In this document: piece by piece, positions 34,205 through 41,568 of the stretch
How the letters are laid out: each line of letters starts with the position of its first letter
Numbering within the stretch: position 1 is the stretch's first letter
Source: Salinirussus salinus
Lineage (GTDB): Archaea; Halobacteriota; Halobacteria; Halobacteriales; Haloarculaceae
NCBI RefSeq assembly: GCF_009831455.1
Contig: NZ_WOWO01000002.1
Coordinates: 1,116,001-1,180,000 of the forward strand
Reading direction: 5' to 3'
Length of the DNA: 64,000 nt
The notes under the pieces: model-generated
Told to the model about the DNA's origin: nothing
What the model saw: the letters and a program-made list of their open reading frames with translations, nothing else
Database searches by the model: none
Translations under genes and position numbers: made by a program

Positions 34205-34279
34205 GCCGGTGTAGCTCAGACTGGCTAGAGCGATTCCTTCGTAAGGAATAGGCCGAGGGTTCAAATCCCTCCACCGGCT
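34205..34279 (+). tRNA. trnT: tRNA-Thr (anticodon CGU)
   Basis: 75 nt. The acceptor stem GCCGGTG pairs with CACCGGC and the discriminator is U. The D arm is GCTCAGACTGGCTAGAGC; the anticodon stem ATTCC/GGAAT encloses the loop TTCGTAA with anticodon CGT; the T arm is AGGGTTCAAATCCCT. It reads the ACG threonine codon. Its 3' 29 bp form the attL core and are repeated at 41479-41507. No intron; CCA is not encoded. Confidence 0.95.
34251..34279 (+). other. attL (3' end of tRNA-Thr)
   Basis: 29-bp core GGCCGAGGGTTC...CCACCGGCT shared exactly with 41479-41507. Bases on both outer sides differ between the two copies, which defines the repeat boundary. Confidence 0.92.
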
Positions 34280-34805
34280 CTCGCTCCGCTACGCTTCGCG
34301 AAGTACCGTAACCAACCGTTAGAGCCCGCTAGACATAAGTTTTCGCCTCAGGGTATCCTCAGTACGACCCGAATTGAATAGTTCTACCAGCCGAAATTGC
34401 CGGTAATCTGCCTTCCGAATTGAATAGCTGAACTACCTGCGGCCGACCCGTCCCGTGTTTTCGGAAAATCCCACTCGTTACCAATTCACCAGATATGAGA
34501 GTGAGAGGGAGCCCGGAGAAGCGCGAAATTGCTCCCGGTGATGGGTACGGGAGCCTTGTGAGCTACAGGGTGTCTCGGCTCTTGCACCGACAGCAAGTGA
34601 TTGACGCGGAAGGGACAGCAGGTATCAAGTAAGTCTTCCGATAGTTACCCCACATCGCCTACGCGGAGGAGATAGCTGGTCCTTCATCAGACTGGGAGGG
34701 CGTGACTCACGCAAAGTTGAAGCAAAGGGTGCTTGCCCATACCTAGCGAGAGGTGGGTTGGGAGTTCTGCCTGAGTAGCAGTGGAATCCAATCGATTAAC
34801 AATTC
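34280..34805. other. Non-coding left flank of the element with short direct repeats
   Basis: 526 bp between tRNA-Thr and the cargo pair. CCGAATTGAATAG occurs twice, at 34369-34381 and 34415-34427, spaced 46 bp; these could be recombinase arm-type sites. One short frame, 34495-34632 (+, 45 codons, MRVRGSPEKREIAPG), is open but has no recognisable features; I do not call it a gene. Nothing else is supported. Confidence 0.5.
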
Positions 34806-35606
34806 CTATCCCTGTCCGTTTTCTGTAGATATATTCAATTCTCGGCGGACATATAAGAGAGTGTCCGTAGAATTAGTCGCGATTTGAGAGAACTGTTCCA
34901 TCTCTTCTTCATTCCGGTCAATCTCAATGGAATGTGCATCCGAATTGGCTGAGTCTCTAAATTCATCCATTTTATTCACTAACTCCTCGTCCATACGGTT
35001 CGAGAAATGCGCGAAGTCTGCCATATTATCTTCCAAGTTTTGTAATAAATCAGAAAATTTCTTAAACTGACCGTTTTCTATATTATAGTAGAGTCCAACA
35101 CCATCTTTGGAATCGCCATATTGACGCCGCAAGAGGTCAATAACGAGATTCTCGAGAAGTTTACGAGTGAGAACAAACGTTGCATCGTCAACCCCAATCC
35201 GATAGCACTTATTAATATCACGGATGAGGGTTTCATAGAACTCTTCATCAACTTCGGTCACTTCAATGAAAGAGCCGTGGCGAACCTCTCTGGAATGTTC
35301 TGGAATGTCAACTAACTCTCCGTAATGGTCGATTCCGGGGTATGTCAGACGATAGCCATTCTCGACCTGGGTGAAATGGTCATCATCTTCTTCAAGTCGG
35401 TTGATATACGTGCTTACGTGTCTGGAATTAATAGTCTCTCGAGAGGATTCAACAGTATCAATAATATCGGCCGATGTGAACGATTTTCGTCCATATATTT
35501 CATCAAGATAGTAGCCCGTTAATCCGACTAATTCTTTTTTTGAAATATCGCGATGCTCAGAATGTCGCAAGAACTCGTCGAATGAAATAGTACCTCCTCG
35601 CGACAT
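34806..35606 (-). CDS. Cargo protein B: HTH-like N-terminus with DUF4145/HEPN-like C-terminus
   Basis: 266 residues in AT-rich DNA. Residues about 20-95 look like a winged helix (KKELVGLTGYYLDEIYGRKS ... ESSRETINSRHVSTYINRLEE, then GYRLTYPGI). The C-terminal half is helical, with FVLTRKLLENLVIDLLRRQYG and, later, RDSANSDAHSIEI. The last resembles the R..GN.AAH signature of DUF4145/HEPN-related domains, some of which are RNases in abortive-infection systems. The similarity is weak and the catalytic R-x4-6-H is not exact. Its ATG abuts the stop of the upstream gene, so the two are one operon. Function unknown. Confidence 0.72.
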   Translation of the reverse strand: MSRGGTISFDEFLRHSEHRDISKKELVGLTGYYLDEIYGRKSFTSADIIDTVESSRETINSRHVSTYINRLEEDDDHFTQVENGYRLTYPGIDHYGELVDIPEHSREVRHGSFIEVTEVDEEFYETLIRDINKCYRIGVDDATFVLTRKLLENLVIDLLRRQYGDSKDGVGLYYNIENGQFKKFSDLLQNLEDNMADFAHFSNRMDEELVNKMDEFRDSANSDAHSIEIDRNEEEMEQFSQIATNSTDTLLYVRRELNISTENGQG

Positions 35607-36335
35607 TCAGACACCTGCGTTGTCTGCCATTTCCTTTATTAATTCATACCCGCGGTCCTGTCCCAATGGTACGATACCAAGTTCAGTGCCTCTCTTCTCG
35701 CCTTTCTTCTGGAGATATTTTTCCCAATCTGAATGATTGTATATCCGTTTGAATCGGTCGTCCTTGAGACCAGACTGTTCGAGGTCATCCACTATATCAA
35801 CGGTATTCCGCCAGAACACGTCGTGAACCGAGGACCACAGGGTGAGAAGAACGACAGAGGCGTTGAGTGTCTTTTCGCGCTTGGAATCCCCCGGCAAGAA
35901 GTTGCTCGCCAGTATTCTTGGTCCAGAATCGGAATCCCCAATTTCAATTACTTTCTTTAACTGGTTTTTGTCCAAGCCCGTCTCTTCTGCTATTAGACGG
36001 TACTCATCACTTTCGTCATCTTCATCTGGCTCTTCGGTTCCGGAGTCTTGTTCCGTATCGCCAGTTACCGCCTCGTCCACCGGCTCTTCAACGTGTGATT
36101 CCGGCTCTTCAACCGCCTCCGAGCTGCTCCCATCATCTTCTATCTCATCCCACGTGACTTGCTCTTCCTTACCCTCCCAGTCGAAACGAGTCGCTTGAAG
36201 GTCGCCATTTACCATCTGATGATAGTCGCTCACGAACTCTGCAAGTTCATCGAGTGCTGAACAGAAGTCGTCGCCGTCCTCTGCTTCTATATCAGCTGAT
36301 ATTGGGCCATCCTCGAAATGAACTTCAACCCTCAT
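35607..36335 (-). CDS. Cargo protein A: acidic-linker protein of unknown function
   Basis: 242 residues from ATG 36335 (MRVEVHFEDGPISADIEAED). The N-terminal 55 residues form a small alpha/beta domain; residues about 60-112 are a Glu/Asp/Ser linker. The C-terminal half is helical (LIAEETGLDKNQLKKVIEIG, an HTH-like helix pair; then ASVVLLTLWSSVHDVFWRNT) and ends in a basic lysine-rich region (WEKYLQKKGEKRGTELGIV). An upstream in-frame Met six codons earlier is possible. Its stop codon is followed directly by the next ATG. I recognise no family. Adjacency to a DUF4145/HEPN-like gene and cargo position suggest a two-component accessory system. Confidence 0.7.
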   Translation of the reverse strand: MRVEVHFEDGPISADIEAEDGDDFCSALDELAEFVSDYHQMVNGDLQATRFDWEGKEEQVTWDEIEDDGSSSEAVEEPESHVEEPVDEAVTGDTEQDSGTEEPDEDDESDEYRLIAEETGLDKNQLKKVIEIGDSDSGPRILASNFLPGDSKREKTLNASVVLLTLWSSVHDVFWRNTVDIVDDLEQSGLKDDRFKRIYNHSDWEKYLQKKGEKRGTELGIVPLGQDRGYELIKEMADNAGV

Positions 36336-36355
36336 CTTCGATATTAAGCACAAAA

Positions 36356-36384
36356 TTACGGCGCTTATTATTACTTACGGCGCT
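36356..36384. promoter_or_regulatory. Two 10-bp direct repeats upstream of the cargo operon
   Basis: TTACGGCGCT occurs at 36356-36365 and 36375-36384, centres 19 bp apart (about two helical turns), 21 bp upstream of the cargo A start. TATA-like AT-rich sequence surrounds them (TAATAATAAG on the reverse strand between the repeats and GATATAAAATAAC farther upstream). Arrangement and position suggest an operator. Confidence 0.5.
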
Positions 36385-36442
36385 GGGGGTAATGGCGTGT
36401 GTAAACAGATAATGATATGTTTGTTATTTTATATCCACATAT

Positions 36443-36886
36443 CTACACATCGGCTCGATAGCACGGCCAGCACGGAAGGTCGCCTGAGCCCGGCCCATCG
36501 CAGTCCGAGTCTCCGTTGGGACAGCTCCCCTCGGAGACAGCTTCACCAGACTTCACAGGCCTCGAACAGGTGCGGGCCGCATCAAGTACGACCGGGTTCC
36601 CAATGAGTGCCAGTGCGACCTTGTGTTTGCAGTCCTGCTCGCGGTGAATATCAGCAGGACACTCGCATTCGGCAGGGAACGCTACCCCGTCCCGCACCGC
36701 CACGCCGACCGTATAGGTGTGGTCGGCTTTCTCGAACCCGTAACTCGCGTTGGCCACTTCCACCAGGTGCGGGCCCACAATTGTGAACTCGAAGGCTTCC
36801 CACTCGGCCCGTTTGGCGGTCTTCTTGTCGAACGAGAGGTATTCAACAGCGGTACGCTTTTCTGCCGGCTTGGCGTCGGTTTGCAT
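36443..36886 (-). CDS. SWIM zinc-finger protein
   Basis: 147 residues from ATG 36886 (MQTDAKPAEKRTAVEYLSFD). The SWIM motif is clear: CECPADIHREQDCKHKVALAL, that is C-x-C, then C-x-H. SWIM domains bind DNA or proteins and occur in bacterial SNF2 partners and haloarchaeal mobile elements. A Cys-rich tail (CPNGDSDCDGPGSGDLPCWPC) may hold a second zinc. The frame continues upstream to 37021, but without similarity. Divergent from the winged-helix gene at 37058. GC is nearer host level than in the cargo pair. Confidence 0.82.
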   Translation of the reverse strand: MQTDAKPAEKRTAVEYLSFDKKTAKRAEWEAFEFTIVGPHLVEVANASYGFEKADHTYTVGVAVRDGVAFPAECECPADIHREQDCKHKVALALIGNPVVLDAARTCSRPVKSGEAVSEGSCPNGDSDCDGPGSGDLPCWPCYRADV

Positions 36887-36984
36887 TGCTTCTGGTCTCC
36901 ACAGAAGCACCGGTCGCGTGTCCCACCACGCGGCCACTTTCCTCGTGACAGAACCGGGCTTCCTACTCACTCGTAGGAGCGTGT

Positions 36985-36995
36985 CAGTATATAAC
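36985..36995 (-). promoter_or_regulatory. TATA-like box between the SWIM and wHTH genes
   Basis: The reverse strand reads GTTATATACTG. It would give a SWIM message with a leader of about 70 nt that contains the inverted repeat CCTAC...GTAGG (about 36962-36977). Confidence 0.4.
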
Positions 36996-37057
36996 ACTTG
37001 TGAACGTATGCATTTGTTCATAAGACTAATGCACGCCCGCGCCCGAACAAGGAACTA

Positions 37058-37264
37058 ATGGCAGACATTGACCTCAGTCCGACCGACCGCGCCATTCTCG
37101 AAATGCTCCGGGAGGGTCGCGCCACACCGGCCTACATCGCCGCCGAGACCGACTACTCGCGCCAGCACGTCCGCAACCGACTCCAGCGTCTAACGGAGCA
37201 CGGGTACGTCACACGGCTCCACAAGGGCCTCTACGAGCTGGCAGACGACCCCGAACAGGGGTGA
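37058..37264 (+). CDS. Winged-helix regulator
   Basis: 68 residues that are nearly all one winged helix: LSPTDRAILEMLREGRATPA, recognition helix SRQHVRNRLQRLTEHGYV, and wing TRLHKGLYELADD. Such short MarR/PhiH1-like repressors are common in haloarchaeal viruses and plasmids, where they control lysogeny or copy number. An AGGAAC run 5 nt before the ATG may serve as a ribosome-binding site. It lies divergent from the SWIM gene, the usual position for a regulator that controls both. Confidence 0.85.
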   Translation: MADIDLSPTDRAILEMLREGRATPAYIAAETDYSRQHVRNRLQRLTEHGYVTRLHKGLYELADDPEQG

Positions 37265-37463
37265 ATACAGGAGGGGGCGTGGGTTAGAACACCGTACCCG
37301 AACGCTGGCCCGTGTCCGATGGTGCCCACCTCGATAAAATGCACCAAAATCCAAACGCAAAGGCGGTTTAGTCAACGAGGCGGTACTGTTCGGGGAAGCA
37401 ACGAACGCGGTCGGCGGGGCTTCCTTGCTACTCCCGAGTTCTGGAACCCGGGTTGAACCCGGA

Positions 37464-37508
37464 CACACCCCATATTGTATAGTATATGGCCTATGTCGGG
37501 GTGGTGTG
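37464..37508. promoter_or_regulatory. Nested inverted repeats at the helicase 3' end
   Basis: CCATATTGTATAGTATATGG (37470-37489) is a near-palindrome. It is flanked by CACACCCC (37464-37471) and GGGGTGGTGTG (37498-37508), which pair. It could be a terminator for the helicase-like gene on the reverse strand or a protein-binding site; no decision is possible here. Confidence 0.45.
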
Positions 37509-39359
37509 CCCAAAGGTAACGTGACCGTAGGGAATGGCCTCCTCAGCACGGAGGTTCCAATACCGATACCCAATCCCCTCCCCCAGATGCTTTCTGCCAA
37601 TGTACCCGTACTCCGCTAACGTCTTGAGATTGCGTCTCACCTGCCTCGGGCTGAGTTCGACTACCGGGTTATCAACAATGTCGGATGTTTTCCACTCCGT
37701 ACCCGACGCTTTAGAGCCGATGGCGGCCAGGACTTGTTCCATTCCGTTTCGATTGCCGGTATCCCATTGGTGGACATTGACGTGCTGATAGGATACTGGA
37801 ACCCATTCCGGAAGAGCCCCAGTATGGACGTAGACGGTCGCACCTCGTGTGCCATCAACTTCCTCTCGTCCAAACCGCAGGACTGCCTGCAATACCTCGT
37901 TTTCACGCAGCCCGTGTAGGAATCTATCCCCAAAGTCGCCGTATGAGCGTTTGACTCCCCTTTCCCCATTCCACTCAATCGATTCGCCTGCCAATGCCCC
38001 GAGCAATACCAATTGTGGGTCACCGGGCGCAGGGGAACCGGCTATCACACCTAAGCGTATCTCTCCAAAATCGTTCATCCCCTTAATATCGTAGTAGTGT
38101 CCAATCCGGTCGATGTGGCGTAGCGCATCCGCTTCTTCGTACTGCTCAATTGCCTTCTTGCTGGTGATGAGCGATGGGCTGCTGCTCTCTCGTTGCTCGA
38201 TGGCAGCGAAGAGCGCTCTGTCCTTTGAGCGGCTGACCCATTTTCCACTATTATACGGCTTTATATCACCAGTTGTCTGAATGATGGTCAGGCCGAGGCC
38301 GTCTCGCACATATCTTCCTTTGTCTTTGTCGTTAAGAACCGGCACAGATTCCATCTGGTCACCGAGTACCAGCCGCCACAACTCTACAGTCGGGGTGCCG
38401 TCAAGTGCCACAATACTCTCCGAGGCCGTCAAATCCGGACGGCGGAGAATGGTTAGTTCCCCATTTGAAGGGTTGCGTGCCGTGACTTCGCCTGTTGGAA
38501 GTTCTGTCCGTTCCCAGCCGTTTTCAAGTTCGTGGCAAGCAAGAAGCGCGTAGGTCAACCGAGCGCCGTCAGGGTGAATGGGATAGAGCCCATCTCGTAA
38601 TTCACTGCTCTGCTCAACTCTTAAGCCTGGGTTTCGGTCGTTGAACCATTCGATAGCCTTGGCAACCAGACTGAGGTCCCCGCAGCTTACAATGTCCTTG
38701 GCGAACCGGAAGGGAATGTCTTCGTGCTGCTGAAGATAGTCACCGACCGCTGAGGTAACAGCATTAGCATCGAACGTGGTCATATATTCCCCTTCCGGAA
38801 ATTCGTCTATGGCCAAATACCGGCCTGCAATCCTCTCACGAACGTACGAGTGCCTGTAGTGTCCAATCAATACATCAATATCACCGGTCTCAGTTGAGTG
38901 GGCCTCACAGTAGGGACACGCACCCTCCCGCTCGCAGGGGAGTTCCTTGCCGAATAATTCCGACGCGTGGGTGTGAATGCTCCTGCCGCCCGTGTCAGTG
39001 CCTTCATACGCCTCGGTGACACGGTCGGCCCACTCCTCGCCGTATTCGCCACTTGCAGTCGGGCAGTCGTGGTGGAACGATGGGAGTATATGATAGGTCA
39101 GGCCGTGGTCCTTGCACCACCCAGCATATTCCTGGTACAGGTCACGTCGGGCGGTCAGGACGGTGAGCGGCTCCCCTGTCTTCGCCGCCCATCGGATGAC
39201 ACCCGAGCTCTTTCCCATTGCCGGAAGCGCGTCCAAGAGAACGGGCGACGGGTTCTGAAATGCCTCGACAATGGCTTTCTCGCAGAGACTGCGTGCCGTG
39301 TTGAGAATCGTTGTGTAGTCAGAATCGGTACCGCTCGGCAATTGGGTGTTTGAGCTCAT
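37491..39359 (-). CDS. Superfamily-2 helicase-like replication protein
   Basis: 622 residues from ATG 39359, which has an AGGTGA Shine-Dalgarno about 9 nt upstream. The P-loop is PVLLDALPAMGKSSG (about residue 45), and YLAIDEFPEGEY (about 185) serves as a Walker B. Between them are Cys and His residues (SFHHDCPT, LPCEREGACPYCEAH) that could form a zinc or Fe-S site as in XPD-like helicases. VALDGTPTVELW resembles motif III. The C-terminus is a winged helix (VVELSPRQVRRNLKTLAEYG). Similar proteins occur in haloarchaeal plasmids and proviruses; a replication role is inferred. Codon use is intermediate between host and AT-rich cargo. Confidence 0.78.
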   Translation of the reverse strand: MSSNTQLPSGTDSDYTTILNTARSLCEKAIVEAFQNPSPVLLDALPAMGKSSGVIRWAAKTGEPLTVLTARRDLYQEYAGWCKDHGLTYHILPSFHHDCPTASGEYGEEWADRVTEAYEGTDTGGRSIHTHASELFGKELPCEREGACPYCEAHSTETGDIDVLIGHYRHSYVRERIAGRYLAIDEFPEGEYMTTFDANAVTSAVGDYLQQHEDIPFRFAKDIVSCGDLSLVAKAIEWFNDRNPGLRVEQSSELRDGLYPIHPDGARLTYALLACHELENGWERTELPTGEVTARNPSNGELTILRRPDLTASESIVALDGTPTVELWRLVLGDQMESVPVLNDKDKGRYVRDGLGLTIIQTTGDIKPYNSGKWVSRSKDRALFAAIEQRESSSPSLITSKKAIEQYEEADALRHIDRIGHYYDIKGMNDFGEIRLGVIAGSPAPGDPQLVLLGALAGESIEWNGERGVKRSYGDFGDRFLHGLRENEVLQAVLRFGREEVDGTRGATVYVHTGALPEWVPVSYQHVNVHQWDTGNRNGMEQVLAAIGSKASGTEWKTSDIVDNPVVELSPRQVRRNLKTLAEYGYIGRKHLGEGIGYRYWNLRAEEAIPYGHVTFGHTTPT

Positions 39360-39889
39360 TCTATTTTTCACCTGAAAGCCAAATTTGGCCAGTAGGAGTT
39401 CAGCAACTCAAAGATGCGATTAACCGGCAGCCCGGGAGAATCGCTCTCTCACTATTCTATTCTCATAGTATATCTTATATTTATTGGCATATGGCTGCCT
39501 TTAGATACAATTTGAATGCCTGGTGCGTGTTGCGACCGTGGCAGAGAGCTAATATGACGAGCGGGCCCCACAGATAATAACCATAAGTAATTAAATTGCT
39601 GCCGGGCTCATACAATCACTCCTGGTCGCAACCGTTTAGTTGGTTCTCCTGTCTACCGGTGCTCCGCTGCTGTTGCTTCGTCGTAATGGTTCCTTGCTAT
39701 ATCCAGGGCCGAGCCGGAACAACCGGGAAGCTCAACTGGAGATGGGCTTCAAAAGCTGTGCTGAATGGGGAGCGGGGTCTTGCGACGGGACAGGTGTTCC
39801 ATACAGAGCGTGTACGCAGCAGTCGGCCTTCGTTGGTTTCAGCCCGGTTTTGATGAATCAGCCGGTCAGTAGGCGTGCAGATTGAGGAC
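39360..39889. other. AT-rich non-coding region, possible origin/control region
   Basis: About 530 bp. A perfect 12-bp palindrome GCCAAATTTGGC (39378-39389) lies 19 bp upstream of the helicase start. AT-rich tracts follow (about 39463-39488 and 39578-39598). Frames at 39596-39885 are open on the forward strand but Arg/Ser/Cys-rich without family features; I do not call them genes. Palindrome plus AT-rich tract beside a replication gene would suit an origin or an autoregulated promoter. Confidence 0.45.
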
Positions 39890-40195
39890 TCACAGCCAGT
39901 CGTCGGGGAGTTCATCGGCGTGGTTGTGTAACAACTCAAGAAGCGGTCGGATTTCGTCGAATCTTGGTCCCCTCATTACTTCGTGAGTGTCCCGATTCCA
40001 GAGGATGAATCCCGCCTCTTCCAACTGAGGGAGGTGTACGTGATAGAATTCTATCTGAAGAGCCTCCAGCGATTTCTCCCCCTCGTGAACATCCTCTGGA
40101 ACAACTATGGAGTCTCGCTGTGGATTGTGTTCGAGTAAGGCGACGAGTAATCGCCGGCGATGAGCATCCGCTAACGCCTGGAAATACTCGTCCAT
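39890..40195 (-). CDS. ArsR-like HTH regulator (DUF7344 type)
   Basis: 101 residues from ATG 40195: MDEYFQALADAHRRRLLVAL, then a short linker, and IEFYHVHLPQLEEAGFILWN, the recognition helix and wing of the haloarchaeal DUF7344/ArsR-like winged helix. It probably regulates element genes. The frame extends upstream to 40300, but those residues are basic and unrelated. TATA-like TGTATTAAC (reverse strand, about 40219-40227) lies about 27 nt before the ATG. Between the helicase and integrase genes. Confidence 0.82.
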   Translation of the reverse strand: MDEYFQALADAHRRRLLVALLEHNPQRDSIVVPEDVHEGEKSLEALQIEFYHVHLPQLEEAGFILWNRDTHEVMRGPRFDEIRPLLELLHNHADELPDDWL

Positions 40196-40386
40196 TTGCC
40201 CCAAACATATTGGACTGTTAATACAAGTGCGTTCCGCATTAACCATCAGGTGTCGTCTCCGTATCAACCGATTTGGATAGGACTGATTCCGGCACCCCAC
40301 GGTGACCGATACGCGTGCTCTCGGTAACGCTCTGTTGAATACACCCTTACTGTCAGTCCCGGGGGTTGCAAAGGAGCCCGAATGAG

Positions 40387-41394
40387 CTATATGTCTTTCA
40401 GGTGCCCTCTCCTGCGTTCGGCTTTTTCGTCGTAAGAGCCCTTGTCGTAGTGCTTTTCGAGGATTTTCCCACTCATATTGACCCGTTCACCGGTAACGTC
40501 CTTTGGCTGTCCAGCGTTACGGGCAGCAGTGACGTATCCCCTCCTGAGCGCGTGCGGGCTGACTGAACCCGGACACTTGCTGGCTTGGTCGAACCGCGTT
40601 GCTTCGCAGGCGTCGGGTTCTTTGCCGAATGGGCAGTCGCCGTTGTTGTAGGTACAGGGCCGGGTAGCAGTGTAGACGTACTTTTGGATGGTAGTCCGGG
40701 CAACCCTTCCTTGGTCGCTGGCAATCAGTGGTCTCCTGCCGCTATCGTCTTCGACGTTGGGGCGCCCGTTTTCGATGTAGTCTGTTATTGTGTCGGCCAC
40801 CTCAGGCTGAATGAGAACGTCGCGCTGGCCCTTGGATTTCTTTTTGAGTGGCGTTCTGCTTTCAGGTCTGTGCCGTAGTTCGAGCGCGGGCCTGCCGTCA
40901 TCGAAGTCTTCTACATCAAGTGCCCGAAGACCGCTGATTCTCATTCCCGTTTTCCAGAGTATGAGGACGGACAGGTGCCGGTTGCTGAGATAGTCGTATT
41001 TCCCGAGGTAGTCCAGAACGGCTTGAGCTTCTTCGCGGGTCAGGAGTTCTTCGCAGATTTCGTCTTCTTCGGAGACCTTGGGGATTCGGATAAGTTCATT
41101 CAGCCCGACCGGAACCGCCTGGATGGTCTCGCAGAACTCAATGAAGTTCTTGATTGTCCGCATATCGTTGCGGGCGGTTATCGGCTTCACGTTGTCGAGG
41201 CGGTGTTCTTTGAATTGGTCTATGGTATCTGAGTCCACGTCTCTGAACTCGGTGTACCCGTTGTCGGTGAGCCAGTCCACGAATTGGCTGGTCGCGGTGT
41301 CGTAGTTGTATAGGGTCTTGTCGGTGACGTGTGAGCGTTTTTCTTTCAGGTAGCGAGTCTTGGCGTCGTGCGGCGGGATTGGTTTCAGTTCCAT
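40387..41394 (-). CDS. Tyrosine recombinase/integrase
   Basis: 335 residues from ATG 41394 (MELKPIPPHDAKTRYLKEKR). The N-terminal SAM-like core-binding domain (TLYNYDTATSQFVDWL) is followed by the catalytic domain: first Arg in KTGMRISGLRALD, then the His-x2-Arg HALRRGY, and the nucleophile Tyr in KILEKHYD. A Cys-rich insertion (CTYNNGDCPFGKEPDACEA ... SKCPG) is common in haloarchaeal integrases. It lies 84 bp from attR, as expected for the enzyme that made this insertion into tRNA-Thr. Upstream in-frame codons reach into attR and are not used. Confidence 0.95.
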   Translation of the reverse strand: MELKPIPPHDAKTRYLKEKRSHVTDKTLYNYDTATSQFVDWLTDNGYTEFRDVDSDTIDQFKEHRLDNVKPITARNDMRTIKNFIEFCETIQAVPVGLNELIRIPKVSEEDEICEELLTREEAQAVLDYLGKYDYLSNRHLSVLILWKTGMRISGLRALDVEDFDDGRPALELRHRPESRTPLKKKSKGQRDVLIQPEVADTITDYIENGRPNVEDDSGRRPLIASDQGRVARTTIQKYVYTATRPCTYNNGDCPFGKEPDACEATRFDQASKCPGSVSPHALRRGYVTAARNAGQPKDVTGERVNMSGKILEKHYDKGSYDEKAERRRGHLKDI

Positions 41395-41478
41395 TGGCGC
41401 AAACCTCTGCTCACGGTACCCGAGCACGAAGCGTCTGTAAGGAGCGTAACCGCCCGAGGGCGTTAGCCCGAGCGGCGG

Positions 41479-41507
41479 GGCCGAGGGTTCAAATCCCTCC
41501 ACCGGCT
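41479..41507 (+). other. attR
   Basis: Exact copy of the 29-bp tRNA-Thr 3' end at 34251-34279. The 5' part of a tRNA is absent here, so this is a recombination scar, not a second tRNA. Confidence 0.92.
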
Positions 41508-41568
41508 TTCTGCGACGACCAGACGCGAGGAGTGAAATCTACGACTGTGACGAAGGTCCAAAGCCGCT

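Follow-up and report, generated by a model that had tools for sequence, protein, structure and literature searches.

An AbiJ-like HEPN-type protein and its adjoining partner, a candidate antiviral gene pair on a haloarchaeal mobile element

The gene pair and its mobile element

The window is a 64,000-nucleotide stretch of a Salinirussus salinus contig (NZ_WOWO01000002.1, positions 1,116,001 to 1,180,000). It contains a 7.2-kb element lying in tRNA-Thr and bounded by two copies of a 32-nt direct repeat, 97% identical. Two genes, here called P2 and P1, lie at one end of the element and a tyrosine integrase gene lies at the opposite end. Between them are genes for a SWIM zinc-finger protein, a small winged-helix protein, a 626-aa protein and a DUF7344-like protein. 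The features of the locus are as follows (window coordinates).

34251-34282, plus strand: attachment repeat at the P1-side end of the element, the 3' end of tRNA-Thr (34205-34280)
34806-35606, minus strand: P1, 266 aa, with an N-terminal winged helix (residues ~14-105) and a C-terminal AbiJ/DUF4145-like HEPN domain (~108-262, motif RDSANSDAHS)
34821-35285, minus strand: the C-terminal HEPN-like domain of P1 as in alignment A7
35607-36335, minus strand: P2, 242 aa, with a small alpha/beta N-terminal domain, an acidic linker and a C-terminal winged-helix-like domain
36356-36365 and 36375-36384, no strand given: two copies of the operator-like direct repeat TTACGGCGCT upstream of P2, from a shuffle test
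36425-36433, minus strand: TATA-like string TATAAAATA, ~90 nt upstream of the P2 ATG, found by eye
37491-39371, minus strand: element backbone gene for a 626-aa putative replication/helicase-like protein with a C-terminal HTH and Walker-like motifs seen by eye
40387-41394, minus strand: tyrosine integrase of the element (PF00589, E 4e-7; phrog_1 integrase, E 5e-26)
41479-41510, plus strand: second copy of the attachment repeat, a direct repeat at the integrase-side end

The stop codon of P2 (TGA) abuts the ATG of P1, giving the junction TGAATG. P2 starts at a conserved ATG; a TTG further upstream, at 36353, has no support from homologues. The TATA-like string may be a promoter. GC content is 45.4% in P2-P1 compared to 55.3% in the rest of the element and 69.4% and 70.2% in the host flanks. 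Among stretches of 1530 bp, the one with the lowest GC in the window overlaps P2-P1. An earlier note on this DNA, made from the sequence alone, had described two abutting genes of low GC at the element end opposite the integrase, and all of this holds. It had also described operator-like repeats. These are present in the window, where an equally long direct repeat occurred in 0 of 200 mononucleotide shuffles, but they are not a feature of the related loci: no significant direct repeat was found upstream of P2 in 14 other places. Three of these 14 have inverted repeats upstream of P2 that just 2 to 5.5% of shuffles equal.

The left side of the locus is 84% identical in a genome of the same genus up to the end of the syntenic tRNA-Thr, after which the element is absent. 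The other flank is on a different contig that ends short, so no clean empty site can be read. Relatives of the 626-aa protein are also encoded beside the pair at two other loci (L051 and L062). The SWIM zinc-finger gene (36443-36886), on the strand of P2, immediately precedes it; the PF04434 match is just under the cut-off and the match to PADLOC PDC-S62 is weak (E 3e-4). If the element (34251-41510) is circularised, P2, P1, the att site, the integrase, the DUF7344-like gene and the 626-aa gene are all co-directional. By analogy, this order recalls the operon formed by the circularised virus SNJ2, in which circularisation makes a new operon across the att site (PMC13107129).

Domain composition of P1 and P2

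The AlphaFold2 model of P1 has pLDDT of ~74-89 over most of residues 11-100, giving a fairly confident winged helix, and this part aligns with winged-helix structures at Z ~8-11. The winged-helix N-terminus proposed in the earlier note is thus supported. In the HEPN half the helices are weakly modelled, with pLDDT <50 at residues 164-172 and 184-230. Foldseek and VIA rows for P1 cover mainly the winged helix, and these fold searches (Foldseek, VIA-align) returned no HEPN chain for the C-terminal half, which may merely reflect the low model confidence of that half.

The C-terminal domain of P1 carries the motif [RKQ]xx[GAS][ND]xxAH[STVA], which in the window reads RDSANSDAHS. This is a motif of the R-x(n)-H type close to the C-terminal helices, as in the HEPN superfamily. 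The same domain is common to haloarchaeal AbiJ_NTD5 proteins. Window P1 matches the C-terminal part of one such protein (locus L061) with E 1e-36 and 48% identity, and the N-terminus of that protein is above the Pfam cut-off for AbiJ_NTD5 (E 1.3e-8, 35.1 vs 26.7 bits). The 2013 HEPN survey (PMC3710099) describes AbiJ-NTD1-5 fused to AbiJ-family HEPN domains and proposes that the NTD senses viral components or inhibits, with the HEPN domain as a suicidal RNase. It tabulates AbiJ in bacteria and also knows winged-helix fusions to other HEPN families. P1 differs from AbiJ in that its N-terminus is a winged helix and not NTD1-5, it has a coupled partner, and it is archaeal. The C-terminal domain makes P1 AbiJ-like; we use this name and not AbiJ because window P1 has no AbiJ_NTD match in Pfam and its sister at L061 passes AbiJ_NTD5. 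The HEPN/Abi direction taken in the earlier note therefore proved sound.

The same note had pointed to a DUF4145/HEPN-like segment. The motif is there, with spacing equal to the R..GN..AH motif of DUF4145 (PF13643), but window P1 has no Pfam match to DUF4145 at E up to 1 and none to a HEPN family. A beta-hairpin is predicted between the helices of P1, with low confidence, and this would be another difference from DUF4145. When the profile of the C-terminal domain is compared with that of seven haloarchaeal proteins found with DUF4145, the match is weak (P 0.008) and pairs the motif and the helix before it; four unrelated profiles score worse (P 0.21-0.71). Abi_C (PF14355) was tried as a marker and discarded: it matched 0 of 145 genomes and no control, so its absence carries no meaning. 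An hhalign comparison of alignment A7 to A3 was dropped as evidence because it is circular, all seven A3 rows having their C-terminal part in A7. Weak matches of P1 to Cas1, DUF2779, DUF7669, GajB, YejK and phrog_38802 (Pfam, NCBIfam, PADLOC, PHROGs) were read as noise.

The winged helix of some P1 proteins resembles that of the retron type II-A effector (NDT plus winged helix). The PADLOC retron model NDT_II-A matches the winged-helix region in four of the six winged-helix P1 proteins given to it (best E 1.7e-4), window P1 having no match, and the retron Eco1 effector aligns with the P1 winged helix at Z 8.7 (2.9 A over 90 residues). This likeness is suggestive only, because many other winged helices score as high. 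The seven element proteins scanned also include no reverse transcriptase and no NDT domain.

P2 has no match in Pfam, NCBIfam, PADLOC or PHROGs, and its AlphaFold2 model is poor (mean pLDDT 45.9). Its C-terminus aligns with the P1 winged helix in a single profile comparison (hhalign, P 9e-5) and is more plausibly a second winged helix than the helical basic tail that had been suggested. Sequence searches of solved structures found no credible match for P1, P2 or the C-terminal domain.

Relatives, pairing and neighbors

A scan of 391 genomes of the class places P1 relatives in 32 of them, at 34 places (the window and 33 others, all examined with their flanks), and P2 relatives in 14. Duplicate loci were counted once (e.g., L138 = L087, L094 = L062, L092 = L065). 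By N-terminus, 10 of the 34 have a winged helix, 14 are AbiJ_NTD5-like, nine have a zinc ribbon and one (L072) is of another kind. The NTD5-like label rests on a match above the Pfam cut-off in L061, a sub-threshold match in L088 and similarity for the others; a Pfam scan of alignment A5 gave AbiJ_NTD5 at E up to 1 in five of nine members (best 3e-5). The single zinc-ribbon protein tested (L071) matches DUF2321 at E 1e-14. Other scans added two winged-helix proteins, L087 (Halorubrum sp. CBA1125) and L139, for a total of 12.

The C-terminal domain is therefore shared, with an exchangeable N-terminal half. The A-H of its motif is invariant in 22 of 22 alignment rows. The arginine is kept in all 14 NTD5-like forms; in winged-helix forms it is R in five of 12 (window included) and K in seven, and all nine zinc-ribbon forms have K or Q. 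Some P1 forms may thus be inactive.

P2 is specific to the winged-helix form. It adjoins P1 in eight of 10 winged-helix places versus none of 24 places of other types (class-wide, Fisher 2.5e-6), or in 10 of 12 with L087 and L139 included. In nine of the 10 pairs the two genes touch, overlap or have a gap of a few bases; in the other (L050) an opposite-strand gene lies between them. Winged-helix P1 occurs without P2 at L047 and L065, and P2 occurs without P1 at L080 (two copies) and L082-L086. At L069 (7440-11470), P2 is frameshifted into two ORFs and both P1 and a GmrSD-type gene are open. Genes near the solitary P2 of L082 encode proteins that share an HTPWDDLTA-like N-terminus, as do those of L083 and L085 judging by similar openings. 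The homologues do pair across haloarchaea, in variable positions and on mobile elements, as the earlier note had suggested checking.

Matches to the P1 profile are patchy (six of 52 genomes of one genus, seven of 29 of another). Across the phylum, the C-terminal domain was found in 19 of the 294 genomes searched, 13 of which lie outside the class. One outside relative (L110, E 3e-37) has an NTD5-like N-terminus by eye. Ten genomes of one genus outside the class (L111-L119, L121) encode a conserved relative of ~303 aa with an S/T-x-SHS-like motif region in place of GNxxAHS; by its sequence, this is possibly an inactive version. In the plasmid collection, relatives are in haloarchaeal records only, and none were found in the viral contigs and the phage collection.

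An integrase or its relic is within ~6 kb of the pair or P1 in eight of the 12 winged-helix loci (window, L047, L049, L051, L062, L067, L069, L087). It is directly upstream on the same strand in L051, L062 and L067, and so is the relic of L069, which has two in-frame stops; in L049 it is convergent to the pair. No integrase was recognized near the pairs of L048, L050 and L139. Repeats linked to tRNA genes are found at L051 (tRNA-Phe) and L087 (tRNA-Val), and L048 and L069 (tRNA-Tyr) and L139 (tRNA-Val) are near tRNA genes. The 8032-bp contig of L062 has no terminal overlap, so it is not shown to be circular.

Some loci include recognized defense genes. The tRNA-Val element of Halorubrum sp. 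CBA1125 (L087:2807-13456) carries an integrase, P2-P1, Pycsar genes (PycC, E 3e-19; PycTM, E 5e-32), and HKD/DrmC-like and HSDR_N genes. The gene that follows P1 at L069 is the GmrSD-type nuclease gene. At L058, an AbiJ_NTD5-like P1 is 11 bp from an HKD-SNF2 helicase gene, which is followed by a IIG/PglX-like methylase gene. Proximity of some P1 relatives to restriction genes is a further likeness to AbiJ. No known defense gene was recognized near the pair or P1 in the window, L048 or L065. These observations come from chosen neighbors and are not an enrichment figure. They agree with the comparison of the pair to antiviral cargo in the earlier note, in that related pairs are sometimes among defense genes.

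A haloarchaeal cassette recurs beside P1 or P2 relatives (L050:9374-16475, L080:4481-10453, L139:8719-13219, L072:5125-10899). It comprises an XPB-like helicase (by Pfam in L050 and L072, by eye from the N-terminus in L080 and L139), proteins of 175-206 aa that have a winged helix and whose N-terminus resembles LHVSVGDVTVEVEGP, and ~130-aa proteins, the latter in three of the four loci (four copies in L050). It is possibly a multi-gene conflict system. NTD5-like P1 genes are flanked by a convergent conserved gene pair (~330 and 640 aa) in L055, L058 and L063, and by a conserved 487-aa gene in L057 and L059.

Predicted role of the pair

We consider it about an even bet that P2 and P1 form a mobile conflict module of two translationally coupled genes, acting most likely against viruses by abortive infection. 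Three other explanations are each less probable. The nearest, because an integrase is so often next door, is that the pair serves the element as an accessory of integration, excision or replication control. The SNJ2 integrase has two such accessory genes, Orf2 and Orf3 (PMC8371274), and like them P2 and P1 can be small genes adjoining an integrase, with a DNA-binding domain in one product. The same-strand upstream integrases (L051, L062, L067, and the relic in L069) point this way, and once the window element is circularised, the joined att site would leave P2-P1 upstream of the integrase and co-directional with it. However, ~640 bp would separate the P1 stop from the integrase start in that circle, the integrase of L049 is convergent, and the pair occurs with no recognized integrase in L048, L050 and L139 and beside a decayed one in L069, so that it is independent of the integrase. 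The proteins also differ from Orf2 and Orf3 in domains and in size (P1 ~250-266 aa and P2 ~210-242 aa, versus 140 and 111), and a HEPN/AbiJ-type domain is needless for such a role. We regard this explanation as unlikely.

Somewhat less likely again is a type II toxin-antitoxin or addiction module, with P2 as antitoxin and autorepressor and P1 as HEPN toxin. The gene for a putative DNA-binding protein with an acidic linker comes before the HEPN gene, the two are tightly coupled, a direct repeat lies upstream of P2 in the window, and the location is mobile. As a two-gene unit with a HEPN-type protein, the pair is like HEPN-MNT modules, but P2 has no nucleotidyltransferase match in Pfam and P1 occurs without P2. 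A type II toxin should always be found with its antitoxin, yet P2 is missing in L047 and L065 and frameshifted beside an intact P1 in L069, every other P1 type is without P2, and the operator-like repeat is missing from related loci. The persistence of P1 where P2 is missing, and the lack of P2 in the other forms, speak for triggered activity and against a plain toxin-antitoxin. The least probable of the three is that both proteins regulate transcription, the HEPN-like domain serving as a catalytically dead module for binding or dimerisation. Winged helices in P1 and, as predicted, in P2 would suit this, as would the K for R substitution in seven of 12 winged-helix forms. Against it are the invariant A-H, the arginine kept in the window and in all NTD5-like forms, the C-terminal domain common to AbiJ_NTD5 proteins, and the loci among defense genes.

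In the conflict module that we prefer, the HEPN-type domain of P1 is the predicted effector, an RNase. P2 would be a co-expressed partner that forms a complex with P1. The P2 protein, with its own putative winged helix, and the winged helix of P1 (an AbiJ_NTD5-like domain or zinc ribbon in relatives) would be the sensing half, binding DNA or a component of the invader. We infer that in an uninfected cell the HEPN domain is kept off. Incoming viral or plasmid nucleic acid or protein would be the trigger, the HEPN domain would then cut RNA, and the infected cell would stop growing, which may protect the population from the invader. By analogy, P1 fits the AbiJ architecture with its sensor replaced by a winged helix and with P2 assisting.

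A more specific version is tentative. In it, P2 and P1 would make up an archaeal abortive-infection system of two components. Paired winged helices, one in the effector and one in the dedicated partner, would gate the HEPN RNase and sense DNA or an invader complex bound to DNA. The system would then belong to a sensor-swapping archaeal HEPN family (AbiJ_NTD5, zinc ribbon, winged helix) as one of its branches. Already known are the logic of HEPN/AbiJ proteins and the fusion of winged helices to other HEPN families. What is new is the AbiJ-like family in archaea, with its three main types of sensor and a dedicated partner of winged-helix type; no description of the P2-P1 pair was found in the literature searched, in line with the earlier note, which had suggested that the system might be undescribed.

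If the proposal is correct, AbiJ-type HEPN effectors extend to archaea, where they form a modular family whose sensors can be exchanged, and haloarchaeal genetics gains a compact, testable two-gene system. The restriction of P2 to the winged-helix form would then be a handle on how HEPN effectors are silenced and triggered.
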